Shown here one piece after another: positions 1-42,462 of a stretch of 42,462 nt of DNA. The stretch lies in IMG/VR virus record IMGVR_UViG_3300043433_000035, positions 1 to 42,462 of that record; one strand, given 5' to 3'. The notes under the pieces were generated by a model. The model saw only the letters and a program-made list of their open reading frames with translations. It had not been told where the DNA came from and did not search any database. The number at the start of each line of letters is the position of its first letter. The stretch's first letter is position 1. The DNA is from a virus. Position numbers and translations under genes: made by a program.

Positions 1-200
1 AATCTTTTTGGTATTTCAATATATTCTGGAAGTACTTCAAAACACAAGAGTGTATCTTTCAGACCATTTGACTCTAAAACACTGGATAGTGGGAATTCAG
101 TATCCATTCCAAGATGTTCGTGTGCTTTGAGCGCTCTTTCCCAGCTACTATCAGCTAGTGATGCTTCCCGGATTTTTTTTAGTGTGATCATTACTGGCAT
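1..200 (-). CDS. Ala-rich repeat-family protein, 5' part (copy E, continues across the window ends)
   Basis: The gene starts at 200 with MPVMITLKK and runs off the left edge after 66 codons, at EYIEIPKR. It belongs to the same family as the proteins at 2578-3057, 7345-7812, 40990-41628 and 41647-42192. From about residue 29 its DNA is identical to 7426-7544. Its 3' end is very likely the partial gene at 42213-42462 on the same strand. With the 90 nt present in the internal copy, the joined reading frame is 540 nt, or 179 residues. The function is unknown. The N-terminal domain resembles Ala-rich phage proteins with a conserved WCAR-x-VQHLM core. It is transcribed from the promoter at 235-263 and would lead a minus-strand operon running into 42.2-40.6 kb. 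Confidence 0.8.
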   Translation of the reverse strand, partial: MPVMITLKKIREASLADSSWERALKAHEHLGMDTEFPLSSVLESNGLKDTLLCFEVLPEYIEIPKR

Positions 201-234
201 TGTTTTTTTCCTCTCTTCTTGTTTCGATAAATTA

Positions 235-263
235 ATACTACATCAGTCTGACGATGTCGTCAA
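235..263 (-). promoter_or_regulatory. Sigma70-like promoter with palindromic operator over the -35
   Basis: On the minus strand the -35 is TTGACG (263-258), the spacer is 17 bp and the -10 is TAGTAT (240-235). The -35 is the left arm of the palindrome TTGACGACATCGTCAG. The stop codon of the helicase gene (260-262) overlaps the -35. The whole block, including the stretch to the start codon, is nearly the same as that at 7092-7153. It would drive the repeat-family operon. Confidence 0.75.
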
Positions 264-1951
264 TATATATTTTTATTTATTTTATCAACCAGCACTATAG
301 CTTCTGCGGATTTTACAGTCTGGGCACTTAACCACGATGTACTATACGTCAGATAAAACTTGCGGAAAATTTCACTATCTGACAGCCCTCTTGCGCGCTC
401 ATATCCTGCCCATTGCGCCATGACTGTACGTAACTTTGCGATATTTTCCTGTCGTTCTATATGTCTTTTGACATTTGCCATAACAGCAATCTGAGGTAAA
501 CGTTGTGCTGCCAGTTTATCCCTGTACTCTTGTGCCGGCATGTTAGCCACAGCTACTGCACCGTGCATTTGAGCAAGTGTCGCTGCATCTAGTTCATATA
601 AATCCCCATCCACATACTCTATAGATGACCCGGCATCACTATTAGTAACGGGAATTGGTTCACTGCAATATGGACACACTTTTAAAAATCTGGCAAAACT
701 ACCCGTGCACTTGTTACACGCCCACACGTGTGACACTTCGGATTTACTACGTTTTTCTGCTCTATCAAGTGTCCATTCCCGATGTGATATTTCCACACGG
801 GGGGCATCGTTGTAATGCACCACTTTTGCATGACGTGCAATGTTGCCGACATGGTCTACATATATACCATGACTCTTGCCGTCGAGTAGCCGCAACATAC
901 GTCCGGCACGTTGTACAAATCGTCCGAAAGATTCAGTTGCGGCTACGTCTTGAACGGCCACAATGGCGGGTAAATCAAAACCTTCATCAAAAAGTGCAAC
1001 ATTGATTAAAACCATCAACTTTTTAACGCTAAAATCATCAACGGCTTTTATGCGCTCATCGTCTGGCATTGCGCTATGTACACACTTTGCAGTAATGCCA
1101 GCAGCGTTGTATTCTGTTTCTAATTGATAACCTGTACTAACATCGGGCGCAAAAACGATTGTGAGTAGTCCGCTCAATAACTTTTGATACGTCCGAACAG
1201 CATCACCGATAACCTGTCCTTTTTCAGCGTGTGCTACCAATGATGATGTGGCTACAGCGCGGGATGATTCGGCGGCGGAAAAATCCCCACTTGCTGTAAT
1301 TTTTATATCATCACGGGAAAAGTCGGATTTCGGCGCAAATAATTTATAATCCGTTAAAAATCCAGAGTTAATCAGACCCCGCATTGTTGTACCAACTCGA
1401 AGGGTATTAAAAACCCCGTCAGCATGTGCACCTAACCCGTGACCGTCTGCCCTGTGTGGTGTGGCAGTAACACCCAGCCCCCTCGCGTTGGGGAACATAG
1501 CTACAGCTTTGCCCCATTTGTTGGCACGTAGTACGTGGTGCGCTTCATCCATTACCCATAATCTTACAGTAGGTAACCATGCTCTAAGTTGGTCTCCACG
1601 GCGAACTAGTGTATCGACACCCGCTACAGCATGTTTAGAATTACAATCGTAAAAACTTTTACCGGTATATTTTAAATGTAATCGGACACACAATTTTACA
1701 ACCTTTGGTGGTCCTATAATTCGATGGTATACCCCATTCATGGCAAGAGCTTTGCTAATTTGACTTACAAGCTCTTGCCTGTGCGCAATTGCACACGTTG
1801 CCCCTTGTTCATCATTTATAATATCGGAAAAAAATACCGTTTTGCCGGCTCCGGTAGGTAGTACAGCAAGAACTGCATTCACCCCTGTCGCCCAGTCTGC
1901 AAGAACAGCAGCTTTTAGTTCTAATTGATACGGTCTTAACGTTGGTTTCAT
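260..1951 (-). CDS. Superfamily 2 DNA helicase (DEAH box) with zinc finger
   Basis: This 563-residue protein is an ATP-dependent helicase or translocase, probably acting in phage replication or recombination. The motifs are visible in order: RPYQ (6-9), Walker A LPTGAGKT (31-38), DEAH (135-138), TATP (162-165), a motif V-like INVALFDEGFDLP and QRAGR (347-351). A four-cysteine zinc finger follows (C412, C415, C426, C429). The layout matches RAD25/type III restriction-like SF2 helicases of phages. The start at 1951 overlaps the stop of the upstream gene (ATGA), so the two are translationally coupled. It is transcribed from the divergent promoter region at 2218-2259. The exact substrate cannot be told from sequence. 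Confidence 0.92.
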   Translation of the reverse strand: MKPTLRPYQLELKAAVLADWATGVNAVLAVLPTGAGKTVFFSDIINDEQGATCAIAHRQELVSQISKALAMNGVYHRIIGPPKVVKLCVRLHLKYTGKSFYDCNSKHAVAGVDTLVRRGDQLRAWLPTVRLWVMDEAHHVLRANKWGKAVAMFPNARGLGVTATPHRADGHGLGAHADGVFNTLRVGTTMRGLINSGFLTDYKLFAPKSDFSRDDIKITASGDFSAAESSRAVATSSLVAHAEKGQVIGDAVRTYQKLLSGLLTIVFAPDVSTGYQLETEYNAAGITAKCVHSAMPDDERIKAVDDFSVKKLMVLINVALFDEGFDLPAIVAVQDVAATESFGRFVQRAGRMLRLLDGKSHGIYVDHVGNIARHAKVVHYNDAPRVEISHREWTLDRAEKRSKSEVSHVWACNKCTGSFARFLKVCPYCSEPIPVTNSDAGSSIEYVDGDLYELDAATLAQMHGAVAVANMPAQEYRDKLAAQRLPQIAVMANVKRHIERQENIAKLRTVMAQWAGYERARGLSDSEIFRKFYLTYSTSWLSAQTVKSAEAIVLVDKINKNIY

Positions 1952-2187
1952 TCAATCAAACTCCGCACATATTGTGCATCTCGCTGTAACTCTTTTAATA
2001 TGTCCAATACATCTTCAACCTCTTCATAATTATCATAATCACGCAATATATCAATAATATGACACAGGTCATCGTCGTAAGGGACTATTTCCCTAACCGC
2101 CTCTAATGCATCTATAGTGTTTCGCTTTACATCACCATGGTATTCAGTACCGTACTTGTGAAAATCGATAAGTTTATTAATGTTCAT
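1948..2187 (-). CDS. Small acidic hypothetical protein, first gene of the helicase operon
   Basis: This 79-residue protein begins MNINKLIDFHK, preceded by a GAGG ribosome site. It is rich in Asp, Glu and Leu in its second half (EEVEDVLDILKEL), suggesting helices. No family was recognised. A longer reading from 2259 is possible but lacks a good ribosome site and would start inside the promoter. It overlaps the helicase start by 4 nt (ATGA), so it may be a helicase partner or simply a coupled leader gene. It is driven by the minus-strand half of the divergent promoter at 2218-2259. Confidence 0.75.
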   Translation of the reverse strand: MNINKLIDFHKYGTEYHGDVKRNTIDALEAVREIVPYDDDLCHIIDILRDYDNYEEVEDVLDILKELQRDAQYVRSLIE

Positions 2188-2217
2188 TCCATCACCCTCA
2201 GTTAAATTTACAAATTG

Positions 2218-2259
2218 ATGATAAAAGATATTGACGGGGTTGTCAATGAGTGATAACAT
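2218..2259. promoter_or_regulatory. Divergent overlapping promoters sharing one operator
   Basis: The palindrome TTGACGGGGTTGTCAA (2231-2246) supplies a -35 on each strand. Plus strand: TTGACG (2231-2236), 17 bp, TAACAT (2254-2259). Minus strand: TTGACA (2246-2241), 17 bp, TATCAT (2223-2218). A single bound dimer would cover both -35 boxes and so could control the helicase operon and the exonuclease-SSB-polymerase operon together. Confidence 0.75.
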
Positions 2260-2294
2260 TCATTACATCAACAAACCGATGTAGGAGGTAAAAA

Positions 2295-2462
2295 ATGATG
2301 GGATTTTTCAAAAAAAAGGAAGTTGTAAAAGTAGAACCTTATACACCTAAAAATAATTTAACAATCCAAGAAATAGAACACATGTTATTCCATGGTGAAA
2401 TAGTAAGGTATGACTCAGATAAGCACCGATATTGCTTGGGACAGTATTCAATCGATGATTAA
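2295..2462 (+). CDS. Small hypothetical protein, first gene of the rightward early operon
   Basis: This 55-residue protein is read from the first ATG of an ATGATG pair after a strong AGGAGGT site (2283-2289). The second ATG at 2298 has the better spacing and would give 54 residues. It has a basic N-terminus (FFKKKEVVKV) and ends GQYSIDD. It is the first gene after the plus-strand promoter at 2231-2259. No family was recognised. The strong translation signal and position suggest an early takeover protein, but that is inference. Confidence 0.7.
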   Translation: MMGFFKKKEVVKVEPYTPKNNLTIQEIEHMLFHGEIVRYDSDKHRYCLGQYSIDD

Positions 2463-2463
2463 A

Positions 2464-2571
2464 ATGTTAGGTTCAGATAAAAAGATTACTTCCCGCAATG
2501 GGTTGAAGAGGTTGCAATGGTACATCATTCTTTTGATAATTAAAAAGCTGAAGATAAATGACAAGGGATAA
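2464..2571 (+). CDS. Possible 35-residue basic/hydrophobic peptide
   Basis: A short reading frame starts 1 nt after the stop of the previous gene and ends 6 nt before the next. It contains a hydrophobic run (WYIILLIIKKL) among lysines and arginines and might be membrane-active. There is no clear ribosome site, so translation would depend on coupling. It could be chance. Confidence 0.3.
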   Translation: MLGSDKKITSRNGLKRLQWYIILLIIKKLKINDKG

Positions 2572-2577
2572 ATAGTC

Positions 2578-3057
2578 ATGACTGTAATGATCACATTAAA
2601 TAAAATCCGTGCAGGTTCACCCTGCGTAGGTGGTTGGCAAAAAGTACTAAAAGCCCATGAACATCTTGGAATGGATACACCATTTCCGCTATCCAGTGTT
2701 TTAGAGTCAAATGGTCTGAAAGATACACTCTTGTGTTTTGAAGTACTTCCAGAATATATTGAAATACCAAAAAGATTCGCAATTTGGTGTGCTCGAGATG
2801 TGCAGCATTTGATGGAAGATGAATGTGGTGTTAATGCAATTAATGTAGCAGAACGTTATCTTGATGGTAATGCGACGTGGGAAGAACTACAAGCTGCTGC
2901 TTGTGCTGCTACTCGTGCTGATGCTGCTGCTGATGCTGCTCGTGCTGCTGCTTATGCTGTTGCTTGTACTGCTACTCGTGCTACTGTTGATGCCGATATG
3001 GAACAAAAACAAATTGATAAACTTAGAGAGATGTTAGATGAATCCAACAGTCAATAG
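2578..3057 (+). CDS. Ala-rich repeat-family protein (copy A)
   Basis: This 159-residue protein begins MTVMITLNK. Residues 1-100 form a conserved domain (AHEHLGMDT, PEYIEIPKRF, WCARDVQHLM, VAERYLDGNAT). An Ala-rich tract of about 45 residues follows, with TRADA/AADAA-like units coded by GCT-rich triplets, then a conserved tail (MEQKQIDKLREMLDE). Its DNA is nearly identical to 7345-7812 over the first 310 nt. Only the Ala tract and a few bases differ. The last codons overlap the start of the exonuclease gene (3038), as the second copy overlaps its own downstream gene. The architecture matches a widespread family of Ala-rich phage proteins of unknown function. A resemblance to the WACDCAER-type Imm5-like domain is only a guess. 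Confidence 0.85.
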   Translation: MTVMITLNKIRAGSPCVGGWQKVLKAHEHLGMDTPFPLSSVLESNGLKDTLLCFEVLPEYIEIPKRFAIWCARDVQHLMEDECGVNAINVAERYLDGNATWEELQAAACAATRADAAADAARAAAYAVACTATRATVDADMEQKQIDKLREMLDESNSQ

Positions 3058-4144
3058 TGCTGGTCAATGGGTAAAATGTCCCGCATCTGTTCAGGCTCAA
3101 CAACGATTTCCCCGCGTGGGGGAAGTATCACAGTCAACGTTAGAGGGTCGGGCATGTCATGACATAGCACAAAAAATGATAAATGCAACTTTGGACAAGT
3201 CAGTAGGGTCATTATCTAATGACGGTGTATTAATCACACAAGAACTATTTGAAGCAGCGCAAGAATATGTGAATGACGTGTTTTCATTATGTGGTGACTA
3301 TGATTTACACATTGAAGAACGTGTTAGTTTGAGCGAGTACTTGCCGGGATGGTACGGTATTCCAGATTGTTATGTTTACAATACTACAGATAATCATCTC
3401 ATCATTTGGGATGCTAAATTTGGTCATGAACTGATCGACGCTGTAGAAAATTGGCCAATGATGATTTATGCAATGGGGTTGGGTAAAAAATTAAATATTA
3501 ATAAACAGTGTAAAATTACTTTGCGAGTTGTTCAACCTCGTAGCTTTCATAGCGGCGGTACAGTTCGGGAATGGTCGTTAACGTATGCGAGTCTGAGTAA
3601 ATATAAAATCATACTTCACAATAAATTACATGATATTGCACAAACAGAACCACCTGCACAAGTAGGTTCACAATGTAAACATTGTACGGCTCGAGCACAC
3701 TGTGAGACGTTGTCACGTGTAAATTACGAGAATATTGACTATATGGACAATTTACATACTCATAATTTAACAGGTCATTCTTTAGGGATGGAGTTAAAAC
3801 TACTACAACGCGCTAAAAAAATGCTTGAGTACCGTTTGTCTGGATTGGAAGAGCAAGCTATACACGAATTGAAAACAGGATCACACGTATCATTTTTCAG
3901 TGTGAAAGAAAGTAAAGGAAGGGAAAAGTGGCGTAAAGATATACCTGTAGAACAAATTGTTACAGTGGGTAAACTAAAGGGGGTAGACGTATGTAAGCCT
4001 GTGGAACTCTATACTCCCGCACAACTTCGTAAAAAAGGCATTGACGATACCGTCATAATGCAATATAGTGAAACACCATCAACAGGGTTAAAACTTGTTG
4101 AGATGGATGAAAAATCAATTAAATCAGTTTTCGAGAGAGGATAA
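3038..4144 (+). CDS. Cas4/AddB-like PD-(D/E)XK exonuclease (DUF2800-like)
   Basis: This 368-residue nuclease is likely a 5'-3' exonuclease for recombination or replication. The catalytic core is visible as GIPD (D110) followed by WDAKFGH (D125, K127). Cysteines C14 and C213-x2-C216-x5-C222 have the spacing of an AddB/Cas4-type iron-sulphur cluster, with one Cys at the N-terminus and three near the C-terminal side. It lies directly before the SSB-like gene and the polymerase, a usual recombination/replication order. The start overlaps the upstream Ala-rich gene by 20 nt. Family assignment is from recalled motif layout. Confidence 0.85.
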   Translation: MNPTVNSAGQWVKCPASVQAQQRFPRVGEVSQSTLEGRACHDIAQKMINATLDKSVGSLSNDGVLITQELFEAAQEYVNDVFSLCGDYDLHIEERVSLSEYLPGWYGIPDCYVYNTTDNHLIIWDAKFGHELIDAVENWPMMIYAMGLGKKLNINKQCKITLRVVQPRSFHSGGTVREWSLTYASLSKYKIILHNKLHDIAQTEPPAQVGSQCKHCTARAHCETLSRVNYENIDYMDNLHTHNLTGHSLGMELKLLQRAKKMLEYRLSGLEEQAIHELKTGSHVSFFSVKESKGREKWRKDIPVEQIVTVGKLKGVDVCKPVELYTPAQLRKKGIDDTVIMQYSETPSTGLKLVEMDEKSIKSVFERG

Positions 4145-4148
4145 AATT

Positions 4149-4928
4149 ATGCAAGAAGTACTATTTCCAGTTGGTCGTTTGGTGTCTGGTCACCCAATGG
4201 AACCGCAAAGTATTATCGATAATAACGATAAACCCCTGCTCAATAACGATGGTCAACCTGTCACACAGCGCTACATTGGTGTAGCAATCCCTAAAGGTAC
4301 AGAAACACACTGGAATCAAACAGAATGGGGTGCAAAAATTTACGCAGAGGCACAAGACCCTGTACATGGATATCCCAATGGTGAAATTGGTCAACCTGCA
4401 TTCAGTTGGAAAATTGTTGATGGTGACAGCACAGTGCCCAATAAAAAAGGTAATAAACCTTGTGACCAAGAAGGTTATAAGGGTCATTGGGTTATTATGA
4501 TGTCTACGCGGATCCCCTACAATTGCTATCATGTCGGCCGTTATGAACCGATGCAGGCAATACAAAATAAGGGGGAGATTAAACGCGGGGATTATTGTCG
4601 TGTGATGTGCACAGTAAAAGGTAATAAACCATCAAAAACACCGGGAGTTTACATCAACCCTCAAATGTTTGAGTTATCACGTCCGGGCATTGAAATCGTG
4701 AGCTTGGGTAATGCCCCAGCAGCCGCCAGTGTGTTCGGTGTGTCTGCTCCGGTCATCCCTGCAAATGCTGCTGTTGATAATAATATAGCACCACCTCCAC
4801 CTCCTCCGCCTGCTACAGACTTGGTAGAGTCATACACTTACAACGGCGTTACATATCTTAAATCTCAATTACTGGCAATGCCGGGATGGACAGAAGATAT
4901 GATAGAACAAAACTGTACCCGCGTTTAA
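4149..4928 (+). CDS. Single-stranded DNA-binding-like protein (DUF2815-like)
   Basis: This 259-residue protein is preceded by a GAGAGGA site. It has a compact N-terminal domain (FPVGRLVSGH; IGVAIPKG; GDYCRVMCTVKGN) followed by a proline run (seven Pro near residues 212-218) and a short C-terminal segment (VTYLKSQLLAMPGW). An OB-like domain followed by a flexible linker fits a phage SSB. It sits between the exonuclease and the polymerase, and a terminator-like hairpin follows at 4941-4962. The reading frame upstream to 4095 is unlikely to be used because the ribosome site belongs to 4149. Confidence 0.8.
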   Translation: MQEVLFPVGRLVSGHPMEPQSIIDNNDKPLLNNDGQPVTQRYIGVAIPKGTETHWNQTEWGAKIYAEAQDPVHGYPNGEIGQPAFSWKIVDGDSTVPNKKGNKPCDQEGYKGHWVIMMSTRIPYNCYHVGRYEPMQAIQNKGEIKRGDYCRVMCTVKGNKPSKTPGVYINPQMFELSRPGIEIVSLGNAPAAASVFGVSAPVIPANAAVDNNIAPPPPPPPATDLVESYTYNGVTYLKSQLLAMPGWTEDMIEQNCTRV

Positions 4929-4940
4929 TCCTTCGCTTTT

Positions 4941-4962
4941 ACCCCGCTTCGGCGGGGTTTAT
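4941..4962 (+). terminator. Intrinsic terminator between SSB-like and polymerase genes
   Basis: The perfect stem ACCCCGC-ttcg-GCGGGGT is followed by TTATC. The T-run is short, so it may only attenuate and lower polymerase expression relative to the SSB-like gene. Confidence 0.6.
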
Positions 4963-4979
4963 CTTGAGAGAAAACTATA

Positions 4980-7112
4980 ATGACACATCTATTGTCACAA
5001 TGTGACCCAATAGCGGGTTGTGGTAAAAATTATCCCGCTGATTTACATAATTGCACACATTGCGGCGCGGATGCCGCATTTTCCAAACCTGCGCCACTTA
5101 ATCCGCGTGATTGGGGTTATGATATAGAAACGTATCCCAATATATTCTCTGCGGTATTCATTCACGCGTTGACGGGCTTAACTAAAATATTTGAAATATC
5201 AGACCGTAAAAATGATTGGTTTGAACTTGTGGAATTTATGCGACAATTGGGGCTAAGTGGTGGTCGTGGTGTAGGATTTAATAACATCCATTTTGACTAC
5301 CCAATATTACATTATATAGCACTTAACCCTAATTGTGGTGTGGATGCTATATACAATAAAGCAATGTCAACAATTAAAGGCAGTCAAACAATTTGGGGTA
5401 ATGAACATATCTTTTTACAATTAGATTTATTTAAAATTCATCATTTTGATAATCGGGCAAAATCAACAAGTTTAAAAGCACTTGAAATTGTGATGCGTTC
5501 TCACAATGTCGTGGATTTACCTTATCCGGTTGGCACGTATCTTAATAACGACGAAAAAGATATATTAATTAAATATAACATTCACGATGTTAAAGAAACG
5601 TTGAAATTTTATGTTCGATCACTTGCTGAAATTGAACTACGTGAAAATTTATCAAAAACTTACGATATTGATATGACTAATTTTAGCAATACAAAGATAG
5701 GCAGTACCATATTAGTATCACAGATGGAAAAATCGGGCATTCAATGCTACACCCGCGATTTCAACAACAAACGTGTACCACGCCAAACAATACGAACCAG
5801 TATTAATCTGGGTGATGTAATATTTCCGTATGTTAAATTTGAACAATTAGAATTTAACCATATTGTAGAATTTTTTAAAAATAAAACATTAACACGTGAT
5901 GAAATATCAGAACAGCTTAAAACTAAAGGTGTATTTAACGAGTTATCGGCGATTGTGGAAGGGTTTCAATATGATTACGGTGTCGGCGGTATTCACGGGA
6001 GTGTGAAGTCTCAAACTGTATCAACTGATGAAACACATCAAATTGTCGATGTAGACGTGACATCATTTTACCCAAGAATGGCAATTATTAATAAAATGTA
6101 TCCTGAACATTTGGGTGAAGCATACTGTGACATATACAATAATATATTTGAACAGCGTAAAACGTATAAAAAAGGTACACCGGAAAATGAAGCATTAAAA
6201 GAAGCATTGAACGCTTCATATGGTAATTCGAATAATTTGTTCAGCCCATTGTTAGACCCTAAGTATACAATGATGACCACAATCAACGGACAATTGTTAT
6301 TGTGTATGCTGGCTGAACAATTGATAAAAATACCTAATTTGATGATGATTCAGGCTAATACCGACGGATTAACATTCAGTTGTCCACGCATACATATCGA
6401 CCATATGCGTACAGTGTGTAAATGGTGGGAGAATGTTACACAGTTGGAGCTGGAAGAATCTTTCTATAGTCGTATGATTATACGTGACGTTAACAACTAC
6501 ATTGCAGAGTACGAAAACGGTAAATTAAAACGCAAAGGTGCTTACGAATATAACACACTGTGGCATCAAGACCCGTCAGCTCAAATTGTCGCACGGGCGG
6601 CAGAATCAGCACTAGTACGTGGTGAGGATATTCGCACATATATAACGAATCACAAAAATCCGTTTGATTTTATGATTCGTGCAAAAGTACCACGAGATAG
6701 CAAACTTGTAATGAGGTGGGAAGAATCAGATGTTGAGCAGGAGTTACAAAATACCACACGGTTTTTTGTTAGTCATAACGGCGGTTCACTGCTTAAAATT
6801 TCACCACCAAAAGGGGCGGCGGGAACATGGAAGCGCAAGAATGGGATTACTGATGAATTTTACAATAGTGTGATGAATGAGATTAAAGGGCTGGCAGGTG
6901 AGGTAGATACCTCCGGAACACCTCACGACTCACGTATACACACGGGTAATCGTAGCACTCATGCAATGCGTGAGTCGTCACTATGTGCCGGCTGGAGTGT
7001 TACAGAATGCGCAAATGCTAATGATTTCAACTGGTCAGAGTTAAACTACGAGTATTACATTAAAGAATGTGAAAAAATTGTGTTACCTCTATTGACGACA
7101 TCGTCAGACTGA
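4980..7112 (+). CDS. Family B DNA polymerase with 3'-5' exonuclease and N-terminal zinc ribbon
   Basis: This 710-residue protein is the replicative polymerase. A zinc ribbon (C8, C14, C25, C28) leads into the exonuclease domain: Exo I D48-I-E50, Exo II around D106 (NNIHFDY), Exo III Y199-NIH-D203. Polymerase motifs are motif A D359-VTSFYP, motif B K407-x3-N411-x2-Y414-G415 and motif C A459-N-T-D462-G. Motif C has Asn where most family B enzymes have Asp (DTDS), but D462 is kept. A YGVGG segment (333-337) matches the exo-pol switch region. At 710 residues it is short for the family. The final codons overlap the promoter at 7092-7120. Confidence 0.92.
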   Translation: MTHLLSQCDPIAGCGKNYPADLHNCTHCGADAAFSKPAPLNPRDWGYDIETYPNIFSAVFIHALTGLTKIFEISDRKNDWFELVEFMRQLGLSGGRGVGFNNIHFDYPILHYIALNPNCGVDAIYNKAMSTIKGSQTIWGNEHIFLQLDLFKIHHFDNRAKSTSLKALEIVMRSHNVVDLPYPVGTYLNNDEKDILIKYNIHDVKETLKFYVRSLAEIELRENLSKTYDIDMTNFSNTKIGSTILVSQMEKSGIQCYTRDFNNKRVPRQTIRTSINLGDVIFPYVKFEQLEFNHIVEFFKNKTLTRDEISEQLKTKGVFNELSAIVEGFQYDYGVGGIHGSVKSQTVSTDETHQIVDVDVTSFYPRMAIINKMYPEHLGEAYCDIYNNIFEQRKTYKKGTPENEALKEALNASYGNSNNLFSPLLDPKYTMMTTINGQLLLCMLAEQLIKIPNLMMIQANTDGLTFSCPRIHIDHMRTVCKWWENVTQLELEESFYSRMIIRDVNNYIAEYENGKLKRKGAYEYNTLWHQDPSAQIVARAAESALVRGEDIRTYITNHKNPFDFMIRAKVPRDSKLVMRWEESDVEQELQNTTRFFVSHNGGSLLKISPPKGAAGTWKRKNGITDEFYNSVMNEIKGLAGEVDTSGTPHDSRIHTGNRSTHAMRESSLCAGWSVTECANANDFNWSELNYEYYIKECEKIVLPLLTTSSD

Positions 7113-7120
7113 TGTAGTAT
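7092..7120 (+). promoter_or_regulatory. Operator-containing promoter inside the end of the polymerase gene
   Basis: TTGACG (7092-7097), a 17-bp spacer and TAGTAT (7115-7120) form the promoter, with operator TTGACGACATCGTCAG covering the -35. The stop codon of the polymerase (7110-7112) lies in the spacer. The segment from here to the start codon at 7154 is almost the same as the minus-strand segment at 263-200, so the two were duplicated as a unit with the Ala-rich gene. Confidence 0.75.
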
Positions 7121-7153
7121 TAATTTATCGAAACGAGAAAAGAGGAAAAAACA

Positions 7154-7342
7154 ATGAATGTTTGTAACAAGTTATTAGATGGAATCGTTTACGGACGTGA
7201 AAAATGTGATACACGCCGTGTAAATAATTATTGTCGATGTATTGCTACTGATGTTGTGTATTCACCAACTGTATCCGCTTATGATGTTGTGTATACCGAA
7301 GATGTAGATGTAACAAACGTCGTTGAATCAAATAAGGAATAG
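7154..7342 (+). CDS. Small hypothetical protein with clustered cysteines
   Basis: This 62-residue protein begins MNVCNKLLDG, with AGAGG upstream. It has four cysteines (C4, C18, C27, C29) in the first half and a Val/Asp-rich second half. No family was recognised. It lies between the promoter at 7092-7120 and the second Ala-rich copy, 2 nt upstream of that gene. Confidence 0.65.
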   Translation: MNVCNKLLDGIVYGREKCDTRRVNNYCRCIATDVVYSPTVSAYDVVYTEDVDVTNVVESNKE

Positions 7343-7344
7343 TC

Positions 7345-7812
7345 ATGACTGTAATGATCACATTAAATAAAATCCGTGCAGGTTCACCCTGCGTAGGTGG
7401 TTGGCAAAAAGTACTAAAAGCCCATGAACATCTTGGAATGGATACTGAATTCCCACTATCCAGTGTTTTAGAGTCAAATGGTCTGAAAGATACACTCTTG
7501 TGTTTTGAAGTACTTCCAGAATATATTGAAATACCAAAAAGATTCGCAATTTGGTGTGCTCGAGATGTGCAGCATTTGATGGAAGATGAATGTGGTGTTA
7601 ATGCAATTAATGTAGCAGAACGTTATCTTGATGGTAATGCGACGTGGGAAGAGCTACGAGCTGCTGCTTATGCTACAACTGTTGATGCTGCTCTTGCTGC
7701 TTATGCTGCTGTTGATGCTTATGCTGCTGCTTGTACTGCTACTCGTGCTACTGTTGATGCCGATATGGAACAAAAACAAATCAATAAACTTAGAGAAATG
7801 TTAGATGAATAA
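7345..7812 (+). CDS. Ala-rich repeat-family protein (copy B)
   Basis: This 155-residue paralogue of 2578-3057 has the same N-terminal domain and C-terminal tail but a different Ala tract (units such as VDAALAAYAAVDAYAAAC). Positions 7426-7544 and 7635-7749 are identical to the two window-end fragments, implying a third near-identical copy. The stop overlaps the start of the next gene (7805), as in copy A. Function is unknown. The contrast between a constant N-terminal half and a variable repeat tract suggests recombination or slippage in the tract. Confidence 0.85.
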   Translation: MTVMITLNKIRAGSPCVGGWQKVLKAHEHLGMDTEFPLSSVLESNGLKDTLLCFEVLPEYIEIPKRFAIWCARDVQHLMEDECGVNAINVAERYLDGNATWEELRAAAYATTVDAALAAYAAVDAYAAACTATRATVDADMEQKQINKLREMLDE

Positions 7813-8265: not shown

Positions 8266-8750
8266 CACAATTAATACAATGGGCAACCCGTCATAATATT
8301 TCACATGTTGCACTGACCGAGTTACGGCAGATGTACGGTGTGGATAAAGAAACAGATCCACTTAACTGTGATAATGTTGGACAATCCGAAGCAACTTTAC
8401 AGAATGCTGTACGGATGGCGGCATCAATTAAGGGTTTGAGATTGTGGCGTAACAATGTGGGGGCTTGTAAAGATGTCACAGGTCGGGTTATTCGCTATGG
8501 TTTGATTAACGATTCGGCAGCAATCAATAAAAAATTAAAATCTCCCGACTTGGTTGGCATTCGCCCCGTGGTAGTCACAAGTGAAATGATAGGTCATACA
8601 ATCGGACAATTTACCGGTAGGGAGTGTAAAAAACCGGGATGGCACTACACAGGTACAGATAGAGAAAAAGCACAACTTGCATGTGGCGAGTTAATTTTAA
8701 GTTTAGGTGGTGATTGGGCTTTCATTGACAATCCTGTCAACATGGTATAA
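8262..8750 (+). CDS. VRR-NUC-like endonuclease
   Basis: This 162-residue protein probably acts on branched DNA. The VRR-NUC pattern is visible: GLRLWRNNVG, then SPDLVGIRP (catalytic Asp), GRECK (E-x-K-like) and a C-terminal AQLACGELIL segment followed by GGDWAFI. It lies between replication genes and just upstream of the regulator. The stop codon lies within the promoter at 8725-8753, so the operator is partly coded by its last codons (DNPVNMV). Confidence 0.85.
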   Translation: MTQLIQWATRHNISHVALTELRQMYGVDKETDPLNCDNVGQSEATLQNAVRMAASIKGLRLWRNNVGACKDVTGRVIRYGLINDSAAINKKLKSPDLVGIRPVVVTSEMIGHTIGQFTGRECKKPGWHYTGTDREKAQLACGELILSLGGDWAFIDNPVNMV

Positions 8751-13578: not shown

Positions 13579-13607
13579 ATATTATACTATACTGACGATA
13601 CTGTCAA
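13579..13607 (-). promoter_or_regulatory. Operator-containing promoter between two accessory genes
   Basis: On the minus strand TTGACA (13607-13602) is 17 bp from TAATAT (13584-13579) and 15 bp from TATAAT. The operator is TTGACAGTATCGTCAG. The plus-strand gene at 13627 starts 20 nt beyond. A weak plus-strand pair, TTGATA (13567-13572) with TATACT (13588-13593), overlaps the same site, so the repressor could control both genes. Confidence 0.65.
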
Positions 13608-14099: not shown

Positions 14100-14381
14100 G
14101 GTGGGGGTGGTTCAGGGGTGGGATAACCACATGATTGCAATAAGAAATTCCGGAAATACCCCTGCATCCCTACACTTTCTCCCTATTCACGGCCGCTGAC
14201 TATATATCCCTATATTTATATATATATCCTATTATAATATTTATTAGGGGGTAAGGGGGTATACAATATAAGTAAAAGAAACATAAGGAGTTTTTCACAC
14301 CCCGAAGAAAAAATGCTGTATAGGGTGTACGGGGTATGAAATGTATGTTGGCGTTTCTGTCAGAACTGTGGCATTATCGCG
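14100..14381 (+). repeat. Duplicated intergenic element, copy 1 (before the terminase genes)
   Basis: About 280 bp are recognisably the same as 27910-28201. Shared blocks in order are ATAACCACATGA, AATTCCGGAAAT, CTATTCACGGC, a long A/T-only core, a G-rich block and a final 33 bp identical in both (14349-14381). C-rich blocks at 14157-14175 and 14297-14305 can pair with G-rich blocks at 14246-14263 and 14319-14337, giving alternative hairpins. The small-terminase start lies 33 nt beyond and has no ribosome site. No function is known to me. Confidence 0.75.
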
Positions 14382-14413
14382 ACATGTGATTATCATTGCG
14401 CGAGTTTAAAAAC

Positions 14414-17940: not shown

Positions 17941-17969
17941 ATAATACTCCATATTGACGAGACCGTCAA
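17941..17969 (-). promoter_or_regulatory. Operator-containing promoter
   Basis: Minus strand: TTGACG (17969-17964), 17 bp, TATTAT (17946-17941). The operator TTGACGGTCTCGTCAA covers the -35. It drives 17678-17902. Confidence 0.75.
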
Positions 17970-22180: not shown

Positions 22181-23593
22181 ATGAGACTTAATAAAGATAT
22201 TTTTATAAAACGTGCTAACGATATTCACTGTAACAAGTTTAATTATGACCTTGTGCAGTTTAAAACAGTTCATGATTTTATCACCATTCAATGCCCTATA
22301 CACGGGTGTTTTGAGCAAAAAGCATATTCACATCTGAAAGGTGTTGGGTGTAAGCAGTGTGGTCATGCTAGGAGCGCTGAAAGAAGAAAAACAACACACG
22401 ACGACTTTATAAAGAAAGCTAAAGAAATACACGGTGATAAATACGATTATTCATTTGTTAATTACACCCATTCAAACGTCCCAGTTAAAATAATTTGTAA
22501 AATTCATGGAGAGTTTGATCAAACCCCTAAATCCCACTTACGCGCTCAAGGTTGCCCCACATGTAACATGGGCGGTAGATTATCACGGGGGGAATTTATA
22601 AAAAGAGCTAAAGAAATACACGGTGGTAAATACGATTATTCACTTGTCAATTATACCCATTCAAAAGTCCCAGTTACTATAATTTGTAAAATTCACGGGG
22701 AGTTTAATCAAACCCCTGAATCACACATTAAACAACGTTCGGGTTGTCAATCATGCGGCGCAAGAATAACAGTATCAAAAGACGAAGTAGAAATTTACAA
22801 TTTTGTTAAATCATTAGTACCCACTGCGATACAGACAGACAGAAGTATAATATATCCTAAGGAATTAGATGTAGTAATACCATCGCACAAATTAGCCATA
22901 GAATTCAACGGGGTATATTGGCATAACGACTCTGTAAATAAAAATACACAACGACATCTTGAAAAACGTTTACAATGTGAAAAAGAAGGTTACAGGTTGA
23001 TAAGTATTCGTTCAGACATTTGGAAAGAAAGGCAACCACAAATAAAATCAATTATAAAAAATGCATTACAAAAAAATAAAAAAAGAATATTTGCCCGAAA
23101 GTGTACAATTGGGGAAATAAGTCATGCAATTGCTCAACCCTTTCTGGATTTAAATCATGTACAAGGTTCCAGACCAGCTTCCCAATATTGGGGAATGTTT
23201 CATCTTGATGAATTGGTGGCTATAATGAGTGTTACCCATAAGCAAAACTTAAACGGTTGGGAACTTGTACGATTTGCAACATCTTGTAATGTAGTCGGTG
23301 GGTTAAGTAAAATGTGGAAATATATAACCACAGTGAATAATATAAATAAAGCCATCTCTTATGTAGATAGAGACTTGTTCACAGGTGAGAGTTACAAAAA
23401 CGCTGGGTTTATTTATGAGTCAACAACTGTAGGGTTTCGCGTCGTGGTTGGTAAAACTACAGAATCTCGTCAAAAATGGAATAAAGCTCCGGATGGACTT
23501 ACACAGTCTGAGTGGTATAATCGCGAGGGTGTGTCAAGAATATACGACTCGGGTCAAGATAAAATTGTATGGCATAATCAACATAACAGGTGA
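22181..23593 (+). CDS. Free-standing homing endonuclease (Hef/Vsr-like, PD-(D/E)XK type)
   Basis: This 470-residue protein is likely a mobile DNA endonuclease that spreads itself between phages. Three tandem modules with the pattern FIKRAKEIHG-KYDYSLVNY, an IKIICKIHGEF-like strand and a C-x2-C pair start near residues 8, 75 and 138; these are probable zinc-binding DNA-recognition repeats. A nuclease domain follows: ELDVVIPSHKLAIEFNGVYW with D230 and E241, then H248. A C-terminal region shows CTIGEISHAIAQPFLDLNHV. It sits alone between a terminator and the next head gene, with a different feel from its neighbours. Confidence 0.88.
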   Translation: MRLNKDIFIKRANDIHCNKFNYDLVQFKTVHDFITIQCPIHGCFEQKAYSHLKGVGCKQCGHARSAERRKTTHDDFIKKAKEIHGDKYDYSFVNYTHSNVPVKIICKIHGEFDQTPKSHLRAQGCPTCNMGGRLSRGEFIKRAKEIHGGKYDYSLVNYTHSKVPVTIICKIHGEFNQTPESHIKQRSGCQSCGARITVSKDEVEIYNFVKSLVPTAIQTDRSIIYPKELDVVIPSHKLAIEFNGVYWHNDSVNKNTQRHLEKRLQCEKEGYRLISIRSDIWKERQPQIKSIIKNALQKNKKRIFARKCTIGEISHAIAQPFLDLNHVQGSRPASQYWGMFHLDELVAIMSVTHKQNLNGWELVRFATSCNVVGGLSKMWKYITTVNNINKAISYVDRDLFTGESYKNAGFIYESTTVGFRVVVGKTTESRQKWNKAPDGLTQSEWYNREGVSRIYDSGQDKIVWHNQHNR

Positions 23594-27854: not shown

Positions 27855-27883
27855 ATACTACATCACATTGACAGTCTCGTCAA
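27855..27883 (-). promoter_or_regulatory. Operator-containing promoter of the Ntn-hydrolase operon
   Basis: Minus strand: TTGACG (27883-27878), 17 bp, TAGTAT (27860-27855), with operator TTGACGAGACTGTCAA. The -10 region (TAGTATTAATTT) also matches the promoters at 263 and 7092. Confidence 0.75.
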
Positions 27884-27909: not shown

Positions 27910-28201
27910 AGTGTGGGGGTATGTATTGGGGTGCACATAACCACATGAATATAATAAGGAATTCCGGAAATTGCCCCATACCCTTACATTTCTCTCCTAT
28001 TCACGGCTACAGAGTGTCTACTCCTATATATACATATACATTCTTATTATATGTTATATATATAGGGGTAAGGGGTATATATAGTATAAGTGTAAGTAAT
28101 ATAAAACATTTTTTGATACCCCGTCTGAATACCCAGTACAAAGTACATGGGGTATACAGTATATGCTGGCGTTTCTGTCAGAACTGTGGCATTATCGCGT
28201 G
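27910..28201 (+). repeat. Duplicated intergenic element, copy 2 (before the neck genes)
   Basis: This is a diverged copy of 14100-14381. Shared blocks include ATAACCACATGA, GAATTCCGGAAAT, CTATTCACGGC, the A/T-only core, GGGGTAAGGGGTAT and the 33-bp end (28167-28199). C-rich blocks at 27972-27988 and 28116-28123 can pair with G-rich blocks at 28063-28078 and 28147-28155. GTAC-aaa-GTAC caps the second hairpin. The end directly adjoins the start codon at 28202. Confidence 0.75.
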
Positions 28202-28675
28202 ATGCTAAAATTAAAAGATTTTCAACTTGCAAAAAAAGAATTAGAACGCGAATTGAAAAAATTTCGCGGTTATAAATCCGTAACCGTGGGTATACATGAA
28301 GGTGCCGGCGATGTACCGGATGGTAATATTAATATGGCAACACTGGGGGCTGTTTTAAATTTTGGTACTGATGATGGCCATATACCCGCCCGCCCATGGT
28401 TAGAACCGGGTGTTGCGTCAGGCACAAAAGAATACTTACAAATAATTTCGAACGGTATTAAAAACGGCGAATCGCTTGAATCTGTGCTCGATACTGTGGG
28501 AATTGTGGCAACAGGGAAAGTACAAGAATTTATGACAGAGTTAAGCAGTCCTGCAAATGCCGCAAGTACTATCAAGGCGAAAGGTGCCGATAATCCGCTG
28601 ATTGACGAAGGACATTTGCGCGCATCGGTGACGTACCAAGTCACGAGTGACAAACTTGAAGAGGGTTTATCATGA
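28202..28675 (+). CDS. Neck/tail-completion protein (HK97 gp10-like)
   Basis: This 157-residue protein begins MLKLKDFQLAKKELEREL. It shows the pattern of gp10-like tail-head joining proteins: GYKSVTVGIHEGA, ATLGAVLNFGTDDGHIPARPWLEPG and PLIDEGHLRASVTYQV. There is no ribosome site before 28202. An in-frame ATG at 28163, inside the repeat element, would add MLAFLSELWHYRV and has a GGGG about 10 nt upstream, so the true start is open. Confidence 0.8.
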   Translation: MLKLKDFQLAKKELERELKKFRGYKSVTVGIHEGAGDVPDGNINMATLGAVLNFGTDDGHIPARPWLEPGVASGTKEYLQIISNGIKNGESLESVLDTVGIVATGKVQEFMTELSSPANAASTIKAKGADNPLIDEGHLRASVTYQVTSDKLEEGLS

Positions 28676-38531: not shown

Positions 38532-39234
38532 GCGTAACGAGCGATATCCCGGACGTTTTGATAACCCATCAACCGAACATCCACAAGGGGCTTTCAAAAA
38601 CAGATCTGCACCCAATGCTAAAGACGGTACGTATTTAGAACGTGACTGGGCAAACGACTGGGACGGTTTTTTTGCAGCATTGTTAAAAAATGCAGGCGTA
38701 ACAGCGAACGGTAGTGTTGATACAGCATTAAGTAGTCAATATTTTGATGCATTACATAACTTTTACTATCTTCCTGTGGGTATCCCACTACCTTGGCCGA
38801 CTGCCACGGCACCTACAGGTTGGCTTAAATGTGATGGGAACACATTCGATACAACGGCAAATCCTAAACTAGCAAGCGTTTATACAAGTGGTAGATTACC
38901 TGATCTGAGAGGTGAATTTATTCGTGGGTGGGATGATGGACGGAATGTTGATGCTGGGCGATCAGTACTGAGTACGCAAGCAGCAACAAAATTACCTTCA
39001 ATATATACATACGTAGAGAGTGCCGAGGTGGCTATACTGGTTACACCACCAGTTAATGCATTTGGAGGTATATTCCCATCTGAAATTAAACCATCTGACT
39101 ATGACGACGAAAGGGTCAATATGGGTCAATACTTCTCAACGAGCAATCTAAATTTGAGGGGAAAATCAGGGCTTTCTACATTCCGTGTTCGCCCTCGTAA
39201 CGTTGCGTTTAATTATATAGTGAGAGCATTATAA
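38521..39234 (+). CDS. Tail fibre protein with collar domain
   Basis: This 237-residue protein carries an N-terminal baseplate-binding part (YPGRFDNPSTEHPQGAFKN) and a tail-collar-type domain with the signature PVGIPLPWPTATAPTGWLKC, then LPDLRGEFIRGWDDGRNVDA and a C-terminal FRVRPRNVAFNYIVRAL. It probably makes first contact with the host surface. It is short, so the receptor tip is small. Confidence 0.88.
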   Translation: MALKRNERYPGRFDNPSTEHPQGAFKNRSAPNAKDGTYLERDWANDWDGFFAALLKNAGVTANGSVDTALSSQYFDALHNFYYLPVGIPLPWPTATAPTGWLKCDGNTFDTTANPKLASVYTSGRLPDLRGEFIRGWDDGRNVDAGRSVLSTQAATKLPSIYTYVESAEVAILVTPPVNAFGGIFPSEIKPSDYDDERVNMGQYFSTSNLNLRGKSGLSTFRVRPRNVAFNYIVRAL

Positions 39235-39831: not shown

Positions 39832-39945
39832 ATGAAAAATTTTGTAGGCGGTAAAAGTAGACCACCACGCTCAACTCCTACCACCGATAAAAACGGTAAA
39901 GGTAAAGGTAAAGGTAAAGGTAAAGGTAAAGGTAAATCTTTATGA
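39832..39945 (+). CDS. Small Gly-Lys repeat protein
   Basis: This 37-residue protein starts at 39832 with MKNFVGGKSRPPRSTP and ends in seven GK pairs coded by a GGTAAA hexanucleotide repeat (39895-39936). AGGA lies upstream. It overlaps the next start (ATGA). It is strongly basic and might bind nucleic acid or membranes. The repeat is likely to change length by slippage. Confidence 0.6.
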   Translation: MKNFVGGKSRPPRSTPTTDKNGKGKGKGKGKGKGKSL

Positions 39946-40645: not shown

Positions 40646-40993
40646 TTATTTAACTTCTTCACATTTGTTAAGGTATGCCCAAGTGCCGCCTACATCGGTA
40701 GTAAACTGATATGTCCCACCACGCTTAATAAAAATGGTATCGCCTACTACAGAGCGGTAAATACCTTTTTCAATCTCTGTCATTTCACCACTGAACGCAA
40801 CTTTGTCATTGTACACCATTTGAAAAGATGTACCGTTATCAGAAACTAAAACCGGTTCAGGTACGTCGTGGATTATTTCAAGTGATTCATCATCTATCGC
40901 TGAAATTATATGAGCTTGACACACTTTAGTAATTACGTTTGCATGTGCAGGTAATCCAATAGCAATAAGCATTATCATAATGATATGTTTCAT
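40646..40993 (-). CDS. Secreted hypothetical protein, last gene of the paralogue operon
   Basis: This 115-residue protein starts MKHIIMIMLIAIGLPAHA, a signal peptide with likely cleavage after AHA. Two cysteines (KVCQA and NKCEE) could form a disulphide. The mature part is beta-rich (TIFIKRGGTYQFTTDVGG). It overlaps the upstream Ala-rich gene (ATGA). It may be a periplasmic effector, for example of exclusion, but only location is shown. Confidence 0.75.
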   Translation of the reverse strand: MKHIIMIMLIAIGLPAHANVITKVCQAHIISAIDDESLEIIHDVPEPVLVSDNGTSFQMVYNDKVAFSGEMTEIEKGIYRSVVGDTIFIKRGGTYQFTTDVGGTWAYLNKCEEVK

Positions 40994-41628
40994 TTACGCA
41001 ACATCTCCATAAATTTAACAATTTGTTTTTGTCTCGCAGCAGCAGCGCGATTACCGGCATGAATTCTATTGCAAGTATAAGAAGCAGCATGAGCATAATC
41101 GACAGCAGTACGAGCATTAGCAGCAGTATCAACAGCATAAGTATCATCAATAGCAGTCATTAATTTTCCCACGGTTACATCACCATCAAGATAACGCTCT
41201 GCTACATCAAGTTCACCACCGTAAACAGCGGTAATAGTAGCGGCATAAGCTGTAGCACAAGCATAATCAGCACCACGGCTACAAGCAACAGCAGCATCAG
41301 CATCATCAATAGCAGCGCTCAACTCTTTCAGAGTCGCATTACCATCAAGATAACGCTCTGCTACATCAAGTGCGTTAACACTACGTTCATCTGTCATTAA
41401 ATGTTGTACCTCTCGAGCACACCACAGAGCGAACCGTTTCGGAATTTCAATATATACTGGTAATGCTGCAAAACATAAAATTGCATCGTCCAAACCGTTG
41501 GAATCCAAAATACTTGACAGCGGAAATGGTCTATCCAGACCTAGATGTTCATGTGCTTTATGTACTTTTACGCAACTCTTAGGTTTCAATACACTGTATA
41601 CTTTGTTTAGTGTGATCATTACTGGCAT
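40990..41628 (-). CDS. Ala-rich repeat-family protein (copy C)
   Basis: This 212-residue paralogue begins MPVMITLNKVYSVLK after AAGGA. It keeps the N-terminal domain (AHEHLGLDRPFPLSS; IEIPKRFALWCAREVQHLM) and tail (RQKQIVKFMEML). The segment LDVAERYLDGNATLKEL is repeated once later as LDVAERYLDGDVTVGKL, an internal duplication of about 60 residues with its Ala-rich part. It is more diverged from copies A and B than they are from each other. Confidence 0.82.
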   Translation of the reverse strand: MPVMITLNKVYSVLKPKSCVKVHKAHEHLGLDRPFPLSSILDSNGLDDAILCFAALPVYIEIPKRFALWCAREVQHLMTDERSVNALDVAERYLDGNATLKELSAAIDDADAAVACSRGADYACATAYAATITAVYGGELDVAERYLDGDVTVGKLMTAIDDTYAVDTAANARTAVDYAHAASYTCNRIHAGNRAAAARQKQIVKFMEMLRK

Positions 41629-41646: not shown

Positions 41647-42192
41647 TTAAGCTGCGTCTAGCATCTCTCTAATCTTATCAATTTGTTTTTGGTACGTATC
41701 GAGGGGTTCGGGAGTACTGCCACAATGTGTAGCTGCGTTTTCAACAAATTCGACAGTGCGAATAACATCGCGAGCAATATAGGCAACATCGGTAATAGTA
41801 TCGTTAATACTTTCATCAGTAAGGCAGTAGATAAGAGTATTGACGATATGGGTGCGCTCAAGGTCGTACAGGTCTTCTAACTCATCCCGCGTTGCATTAC
41901 CGTCAAGATAACGTTCTGCCACCTCTAATGCTTCGATATCCTCGCTGTCGTCCATCATTAAATACGATATATCCTGAACACACCACAATGCGAATTTTTT
42001 TAATATTTCAATGTGTTCGGGTAGTGCTTCAAAACACTTTAATGCCCCGTGCAAGTCACTGCAATCTAATACGTTACATAGGGGAAATTGTGTATTCATC
42101 CCCAAATGCTTATGTGCTTTTAATACTTTTTCCCAGCCGTCTATAGAGGGTTGGGATTCTAGAATTTTATTTAACGTGATCATTACTGGCAT
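41647..42192 (-). CDS. Repeat-family protein lacking the Ala tract (copy D)
   Basis: This 181-residue paralogue begins MPVMITLNKILESQPS after AAGGA. It has the family N-terminal domain (AHKHLGMNTQFPL; WCVQDISYLMM; LEVAERYLDGNAT) and the tail (YQKQIDKIREMLDAA). In place of the Ala tract is an ordinary acidic region (LYDLERTHIVNTLIYC ... ITDVAYIARDVIRTVEFVEN). This shows that the Ala tract is not required for the family. Confidence 0.82.
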   Translation of the reverse strand: MPVMITLNKILESQPSIDGWEKVLKAHKHLGMNTQFPLCNVLDCSDLHGALKCFEALPEHIEILKKFALWCVQDISYLMMDDSEDIEALEVAERYLDGNATRDELEDLYDLERTHIVNTLIYCLTDESINDTITDVAYIARDVIRTVEFVENAATHCGSTPEPLDTYQKQIDKIREMLDAA

Positions 42193-42212: not shown

Positions 42213-42462
42213 TTATACTGCGTCTAACATCTCTCTAAGTTTAACAATTTGTTTTTCACGCGTGGCAGCATCAACAGCAGCGCGAGCAGCACAAGCATCA
42301 GCACGAGTAGCAGCATCAGCATCAGCACGAGTAGCAGCATCAGCATCAGCACGAGTAGCAGTACAAGCAGCAGCATAAGCATCAACAGCAGCATAAGCAG
42401 CAAGAGCAGCATCAACAGTTGTAGCATAAGCAGCAGCTCGTAGCTCTTCCCACGTCGCATTA
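42213..42462 (-). CDS. Ala-rich repeat-family protein, 3' part (copy E, joins to 1-200)
   Basis: The fragment enters from the right edge at the NATWEEL position of the family and ends LDAV, stop at 42213. From 42462 inward, 115 nt are identical to 7635-7749. The tract then has ADADAATR units coded by a 24-bp tandem repeat. The tail is EKQIVKLREMLDAV. It is in the right frame and strand to be the end of the gene starting at 200, with 90 nt missing between window ends. Confidence 0.78.
   Translation of the reverse strand, partial: NATWEELRAAAYATTVDAALAAYAAVDAYAAACTATRADADAATRADADAATRADACAARAAVDAATREKQIVKLREMLDAV
42301..42360 (-). repeat. 24-bp tandem repeat, about 2.5 units
   Basis: Units at 42301-42324 and 42325-42348 are identical, and 42349-42360 is a half unit. 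Each codes eight residues (ADADAATR as a repeating pattern). Such exact repeats can gain or lose units by slippage, so this copy probably varies in length. Confidence 0.75.

Follow-up and report, generated by a model that had tools for sequence, protein, structure and literature searches.

The 42,462-nucleotide (nt) stretch analyzed here (IMG/VR record IMGVR_UViG_3300043433_000035, positions 1 to 42,462; a bacterial virus contig of 42.5 kb, hereafter the window) holds five copies, A to E, of one small gene belonging to PHROG 18326, apparently as paralogues of one early phage protein. Several copies per genome recur in this family, copies A, B and E have been homogenized in a mosaic manner, and an alanine-rich tract encoded by a codon repeat changes in length between like loci. 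This pattern is real, recurrent and absent from the literature searched, yet its ingredients are ordinary ones, namely a phage family already known, slippage at repeats, and recombination among the copies. The explanation that we tentatively prefer, which taken as a whole falls somewhat short of an even chance, is that the copies encode early inhibitors resembling Imm5 immunity proteins and carrying a changeable helical hairpin. The five copies are located as follows.

2578..3057, plus strand: copy A, 159 amino acids (aa), matching phrog_18326 at E 1e-34 and modeled with AlphaFold; a conserved head of about residues 1-104, an Ala-rich tract and a conserved C-terminal helix, the 3' end overlapping the exonuclease gene.
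7345..7812, plus strand: copy B, 155 aa, with a tract unlike that of A.
40990..41628, minus strand: copy C, 212 aa, diverged, with an internally duplicated VAERYLDG segment.
41647..42192, minus strand: copy D, 181 aa, diverged, without the Ala tract.
1..200, minus strand: 5' part of copy E, which starts at 200 and runs off the contig start.
42213..42461, minus strand: 3' part of copy E, with a long Ala-rich tract and the C-terminal helix, running off the contig end.

Copy E is a single gene split by the contig ends (minus strand, 200..1 and then 42461..42213). The window phage is a distant relative of the Edwardsiella phages MSW-3 and PEi21, to whose counterparts its polymerase is 59% identical, and its gene content includes a helicase, an exonuclease, an annealing protein and a primase. 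A close relative, IMG/VR contig 3300047298_000009 (hereafter G004), is about 91% identical in nucleotides over long aligned pieces.

Copies A to D match phrog_18326 with E values of 1e-34 to 8e-17 in a region made up of the head and the first part of the tract, and all 71 members that we aligned match this same phage family of unknown function, whose proteins are laid out as a head of about 100 aa, a tract rich in Ala and a closing helix that is conserved. An earlier note on this DNA had suggested a profile search of the N-terminal domain; the outcome was PHROG 18326, a match to Imm5 below threshold and no housekeeping function, and a search of NCBIfam returned no match. We confirmed 513 relatives in IMG/VR viral contigs, and copy A matches 21 phage records, with MSW-3 and PEi21 not among them. 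Two to five copies are present in 18 of the 71 records counted, several of which represent one lineage, and most have a single copy. The PHROG 18326 proteins of Erwinia phage phiEt88, Pseudomonas phages AF and PPpW-3, and Burkholderia phage Bcep176 have the same head, tract and closing helix; however, these phages carry one copy each, whereas the window phage carries five, with heads that are partly homogenized. The tracts differ as well, being built of NNT codons with Tyr, Asp, Val and Cys in the window and following a Trp/Arg/Asp pattern in GC-rich relatives. A scan of genome contigs with one narrow peptide pattern found only two relatives, both in metagenome-assembled genomes (MAGs) of candidate phyla. 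Relatives in Falkowbacteria (L020) and Saccharibacteria (L021) MAG contigs could be phage sequence or binning contamination, and the first of these genomes also carries a true Imm5_like gene (L102). In the literature searched, we found no paper on a phage Imm-5-like family, nor one that combines repeats with gene conversion among phage paralogues.

Over their first 315 nt, copies A and B are 98% identical, with seven mismatches at nt 102, 103, 104, 108, 111, 309 and 314; the five that precede nt 300 all fall within a single 10-nt patch (permutation p <= 5e-6), in which E carries the version of B. The last 60 nt or so of A and B are again almost identical, and the variable part is therefore an insert flanked on both sides by conserved sequence. 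In the comparison of E with B, the first 80 nt or so are clearly diverged (about 70% identity); 119 identical nt follow, then about 90 nt that are absent from the contig, and then a further 115 identical nt.

7426..7749, plus strand: 324-nt stretch of B matched exactly by E wherever E is known, with E inverted (inverted repeats I3 and I5).

The mosaic structure of E favors conversion or crossing-over. The heads of A and B are only 72-82% like the copies in G004, whose surroundings are 86-91% identical, and the simplest account of their likeness to each other would be recent homogenization, or recent replacement by duplication. The heads of C and D within the window, and of all copies within G001 and G004, are about 69-81% alike, and most paralogues in other phages also have diverged heads. 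The earlier note had described the N-terminal 300 nt as near-identical in A, B and E and as kept constant by gene conversion. The near-identity holds for A and B and fails for the first 80 nt of E; gene conversion of the constant part is supported for A, B and E by the sharp switches of the mosaic and by the contrast with G004; a frozen constant part does not stand as a general rule. The same note had called C and D diverged, which agrees with head identities to A of 78% and 71%, respectively, at the nucleotide level. It had also described one of them as duplicated and the other as lacking the tract: C contains an internal 88-nt direct repeat (80% identical, at 41125-41212 and 41284-41371), and the Ala content of D is 6%. 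The overlap of A and B with downstream gene starts by way of the same LDE codons was likewise found, the two stops overlapping the ATGAA start of unrelated genes downstream.

The codon-repeat tracts of A and B, which differ in length and order as had been claimed, occupy these positions.

2890..3000, plus strand: GCT/NNT codon repeat tract of A.
7657..7767, plus strand: GCT/NNT codon repeat tract of B.

GCT accounts for 18 of the 19 Ala codons in the tract of A, compared with 122 of 439 in ten large open reading frames (ORFs), a codon bias well beyond chance. In low-GC phages, T occupies the third position in 62-97% of tract codons, mostly above 80%, as opposed to 25-39% in the heads. Single-base departures from GCT in 12 low-GC tracts change the amino acid in 208 cases and are silent in 30, where 2:1 would be expected without selection; repeat codons are not independent, so the significance of this ratio is overstated, and it serves as a strong hint, and not as a formal test, that selection acts on the tract residues. 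Codons two steps away from GCT (TAT, CGT and TGT) are common in the tracts, from which particular residues seem to be favored. At orthologous loci whose DNA matches on at least one flank, we found tracts of 330 versus 222 nt with downstream DNA 98% alike, of 198, 255 and 270 nt with identical downstream DNA, and of 399 versus 351 nt with upstream DNA 99% alike. By contrast, contigs of the same strain from separate samples carry mostly identical tracts. One contig (L048) has five tandem copies versus three in sister contigs of other samples; the extra copy is a hybrid between two others, which supports unequal exchange between copies. The idea that the repeats drive tract change is thus borne out both by the unequal tract lengths at orthologous loci and by the way in which the codons repeat, and the tract data are consistent with slippage and exchange over an evolutionary time scale.

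The AlphaFold model of copy A has a mean pLDDT of 85.7, with a less certain tract (54-72) and a confident closing helix. For a GC-rich member (L066) the mean pLDDT is 92.4, and the model has a confident hairpin (H102-141/H145-184) of two predicted helices of about 40 residues each, together with a helical head. In view of these models, the tract is best seen as a variable-length helical hairpin fixed at both ends and not as a loose tail. No credible relative was found in the PDB by sequence, and Foldseek gave no PDB match for the copy A model.

Imm5 and Imm5_like (PF14423 and PF21805) are the only recurring Pfam matches, being found in 6 and 2 of the 71 members, with best values of 0.0023 and 0.0007, respectively. 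PEX14-like, HMA and similar weak Pfam matches were rejected as composition-driven, lying in the Ala tract or having been seen only once. The profile-profile probability against Imm5_like is 92% when the tract is included and 79% when it is left out, the best of 100 column shuffles reaching 22%, and a BFVD match named Imm-5-like has a TM of 0.74. Like Imm5 and Imm5_like, the family is all-helical in its models, has an Ala-rich second half and has a region W..CA..V..L..D.R...A....ER that the profile comparison aligns; of the D/R motif, D81 is nearly invariant in the family, but R has been lost in A and B. The top PDB match of the L066 model is 7jtu_B, a helical protein (115 residues aligned, 4.1 A, Z 5.5, 9% identity in the aligned part). 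The 7JTU entry holds the complex of the toxin SsdA with SsdAI, the helical immunity protein of this single-stranded DNA deaminase toxin, which SsdAI touches via a protrusion (PMC7901873). SsdA is one of the DYW-like deaminases, and a published listing pairs DYW deaminases with Imm5 as an immunity protein (PMC3482391). We looked for true PF14423 members as a sequence bridge between Imm5 and SsdAI, but 379 genomes from a single phylum contained none; the tie is therefore based on published work and on a weak similarity of folds, and no paper joining Imm5 and SsdA was found in the literature searched. The relationship of the family to Imm5, as judged from profiles and models, is weak but convergent.

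In the explanation that we prefer, a typical copy would consist of a conserved all-helical head of about 100 aa, a hairpin of variable length derived from a codon repeat that stays in frame, and a closing helix that is likewise conserved. The head would be a distant immunity or inhibitor domain of the Imm5 type, and the hairpin a surface that is changed from copy to copy. The early copies may then act as a small set of inhibitors against toxins or defense factors of the host or of rival elements, much as a bacterial polyimmunity set does. Within the tract, slippage and unequal exchange would create new variants, as would recombination between copies, which is probably ordinary homologous recombination, the phage having its own exonuclease and annealing protein.

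3038..4144, plus strand: exonuclease gene, starting inside the end of copy A (phrog_69, E 1e-55).
4149..4928, plus strand: gene of a Gp2.5-like single-strand binding/annealing protein (phrog_7011, E 9e-72).

It is important to note that several observations weigh against this explanation. The Pfam scores for Imm5 and Imm5_like are about 10-16 bits, none reaching the 25-bit cut-off, and the family differs from Imm5 in an extra N-terminal part of about 60 residues and in its place in phage early regions. We saw no toxin gene adjacent to the copies, whose neighbors are the helicase, exonuclease, annealing protein and polymerase genes and small genes of unknown function, and PADLOC gave no match. 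The 7jtu_B match is weak, since its Foldseek E of 4.0 and its Z score lie in the range of unrelated helical proteins, and the assignment of this chain to SsdAI was inferred from chain length and the all-helical match. Many phages have a single copy, which indicates that an array is not needed for function; to this are added the mostly identical tracts within strains and the dependence among repeat codons. For these reasons we have not filed the family as Imm5; it is probably a distant cousin of the bacterial toxin-immunity proteins. An immunity-like or inhibitor role is nevertheless the likeliest single reading, held at a little under an even chance, with a plain spacer next.

According to this second reading, which is possible but rather unlikely, the tract would be a mechanical spacer for which any Ala-rich helix former suffices, slippage would be free, and the head alone would perform some early work other than immunity. 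Tract length indeed ranges from 41 to over 100 residues and the order is variable, while the helix-forming composition is kept: proline makes up 22 of 6076 residues, and across the family the non-Ala residues follow a period-4 pattern. The many single-copy members also fit a spacer. However, the shortage of silent changes in low-GC tracts is unlike a free spacer, and the common two-step codons, with the particular residues that they seem to favor, and the conserved closing helix speak against it as well.

The inhibitor explanation can also be extended to a full phage counterpart of polyimmunity, in which hairpins varied by slippage and converted heads would block varied toxins, possibly deaminases, during infection, and the copies would in addition be joints for the inversion of early-gene modules; in this complete form we consider it improbable. 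As in polyimmunity loci, where immunity genes stand in arrays (PMC3482391), several related, non-identical small genes are found in one genome, whereas the window copies are phage-borne and scattered over early operons.

The position of the copies within the early operons is marked by a palindrome, TTGACNNNNNNGTCA, which has 15 matches in the window versus 0.44 expected, counting both strands of symmetric sites.

249..263, minus strand: operator-like TTGACNNNNNNGTCA upstream of E, overlapping a promoter-like -35.
2231..2246, no strand assigned: operator-like palindrome between the gene at 1948-2259 (minus strand) and a small gene plus copy A (plus strand).
7092..7106, plus strand: operator-like site with a promoter-like sequence; the small gene at 7154-7342 and copy B lie downstream.
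8725-8740, 13593-13607, 17954-17969, 27868-27883 and others: further TTGACNNNNNNGTCA matches.

Several of these sites overlap a promoter-like -35, with TAGTAT/TATAGT 17 nt further on, and the 62 nt around the site upstream of E recur at 7090-7151 (inverted repeat I10). The palindrome is also present in G004 and, in a stricter form, in MSW-3, and it is probably the binding site of a phage regulator. Its location just upstream of E and of the small genes before A and B places the early copies in seemingly regulated early operons.

The copies could instead be mainly recombination joints, that is, promoter-linked cassettes near the heads of early operons through which modules are inverted or exchanged, although we regard this as distinctly improbable. 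The comparison of module order (window 1-7812 versus L112 and L100) places the helicase, exonuclease-polymerase and structural modules in three different orders in the window, G004 and MSW-3, and the joints of the rearranged modules in the window and G004 are gene copies. The G004 copies X, Y and W have at most 27 nt in common (the larger W/V value is due to flanking DNA counted twice), which argues that the G004 order is not an artefact of assembly across repeats, and the early copies follow the same operator-like site. On the other hand, most relatives have one copy, and the order in the window is uncertain: flipping the segment between B and E yields the MSW-3 order, and the order seen may stem from a repeat left unresolved in assembly, since up to 324 nt are common to these two copies. 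The assembler could have mispaired B and E, or both orientations of the segment might coexist.

A related concern, to which we assign still less weight, is that assembly has produced part of the near-identity among A, B and E, one repeat node having been used several times. The contig stops 119 nt into the shared stretch at one end and 115 nt into it at the other, as happens when a short-read assembler stops at a repeat, and G002, in which two heads have 366 identical nt in common, is a contig that also ends inside a copy. However, A and B differ in the patch, the tracts, the flanks and the 3' ends, and E has its own 5' and 3' sequence, so that three separate loci are needed even if heads and tails were mispaired.

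The least probable explanation is the dedicated diversification or decoy system that the earlier note had put forward: there are a constant part, a variable part and several copies, but nothing was found in support of a decoy, no store of silent cassettes was seen in the window, tracts within strains are mostly identical, and a reverse transcriptase (PF00078), detected in control genomes, is absent from the window and five relatives, which rules out a diversity-generating retroelement and leaves fast programmed diversification unsupported.

Other repeats and features were also observed in the window. Two 69-nt direct repeats (14318-14386 and 28136-28204) that are 81% identical and 13.8 kb apart have the common core GGCGTTTCTGTCAGAACTGTGGCATTATCGCG and are possibly promoters or regulatory sites. 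One long ORF contains a 135-nt direct repeat (22403-22537 and 22592-22726, 89% identical), and a small ORF ends in a Gly-Lys run encoded by seven perfect GGTAAA repeats (39895-39936). A tRNA-Gly (ccc) predicted by ARAGORN at 38786-38873 (minus strand) overlaps an ORF on the opposite strand and may be spurious.

The family is common in phages, with hundreds of contigs, and the pattern described here makes its function testable. The copies may also serve as a natural example of how repeats can rearrange the order of early modules in phages. Should the hairpin be a recognition surface, phages would have a simple means of varying an inhibitor through recombination, with no need for a reverse transcriptase or for silent cassettes, and inhibitors of toxins or defenses that form a new class could be reached by standard tests.

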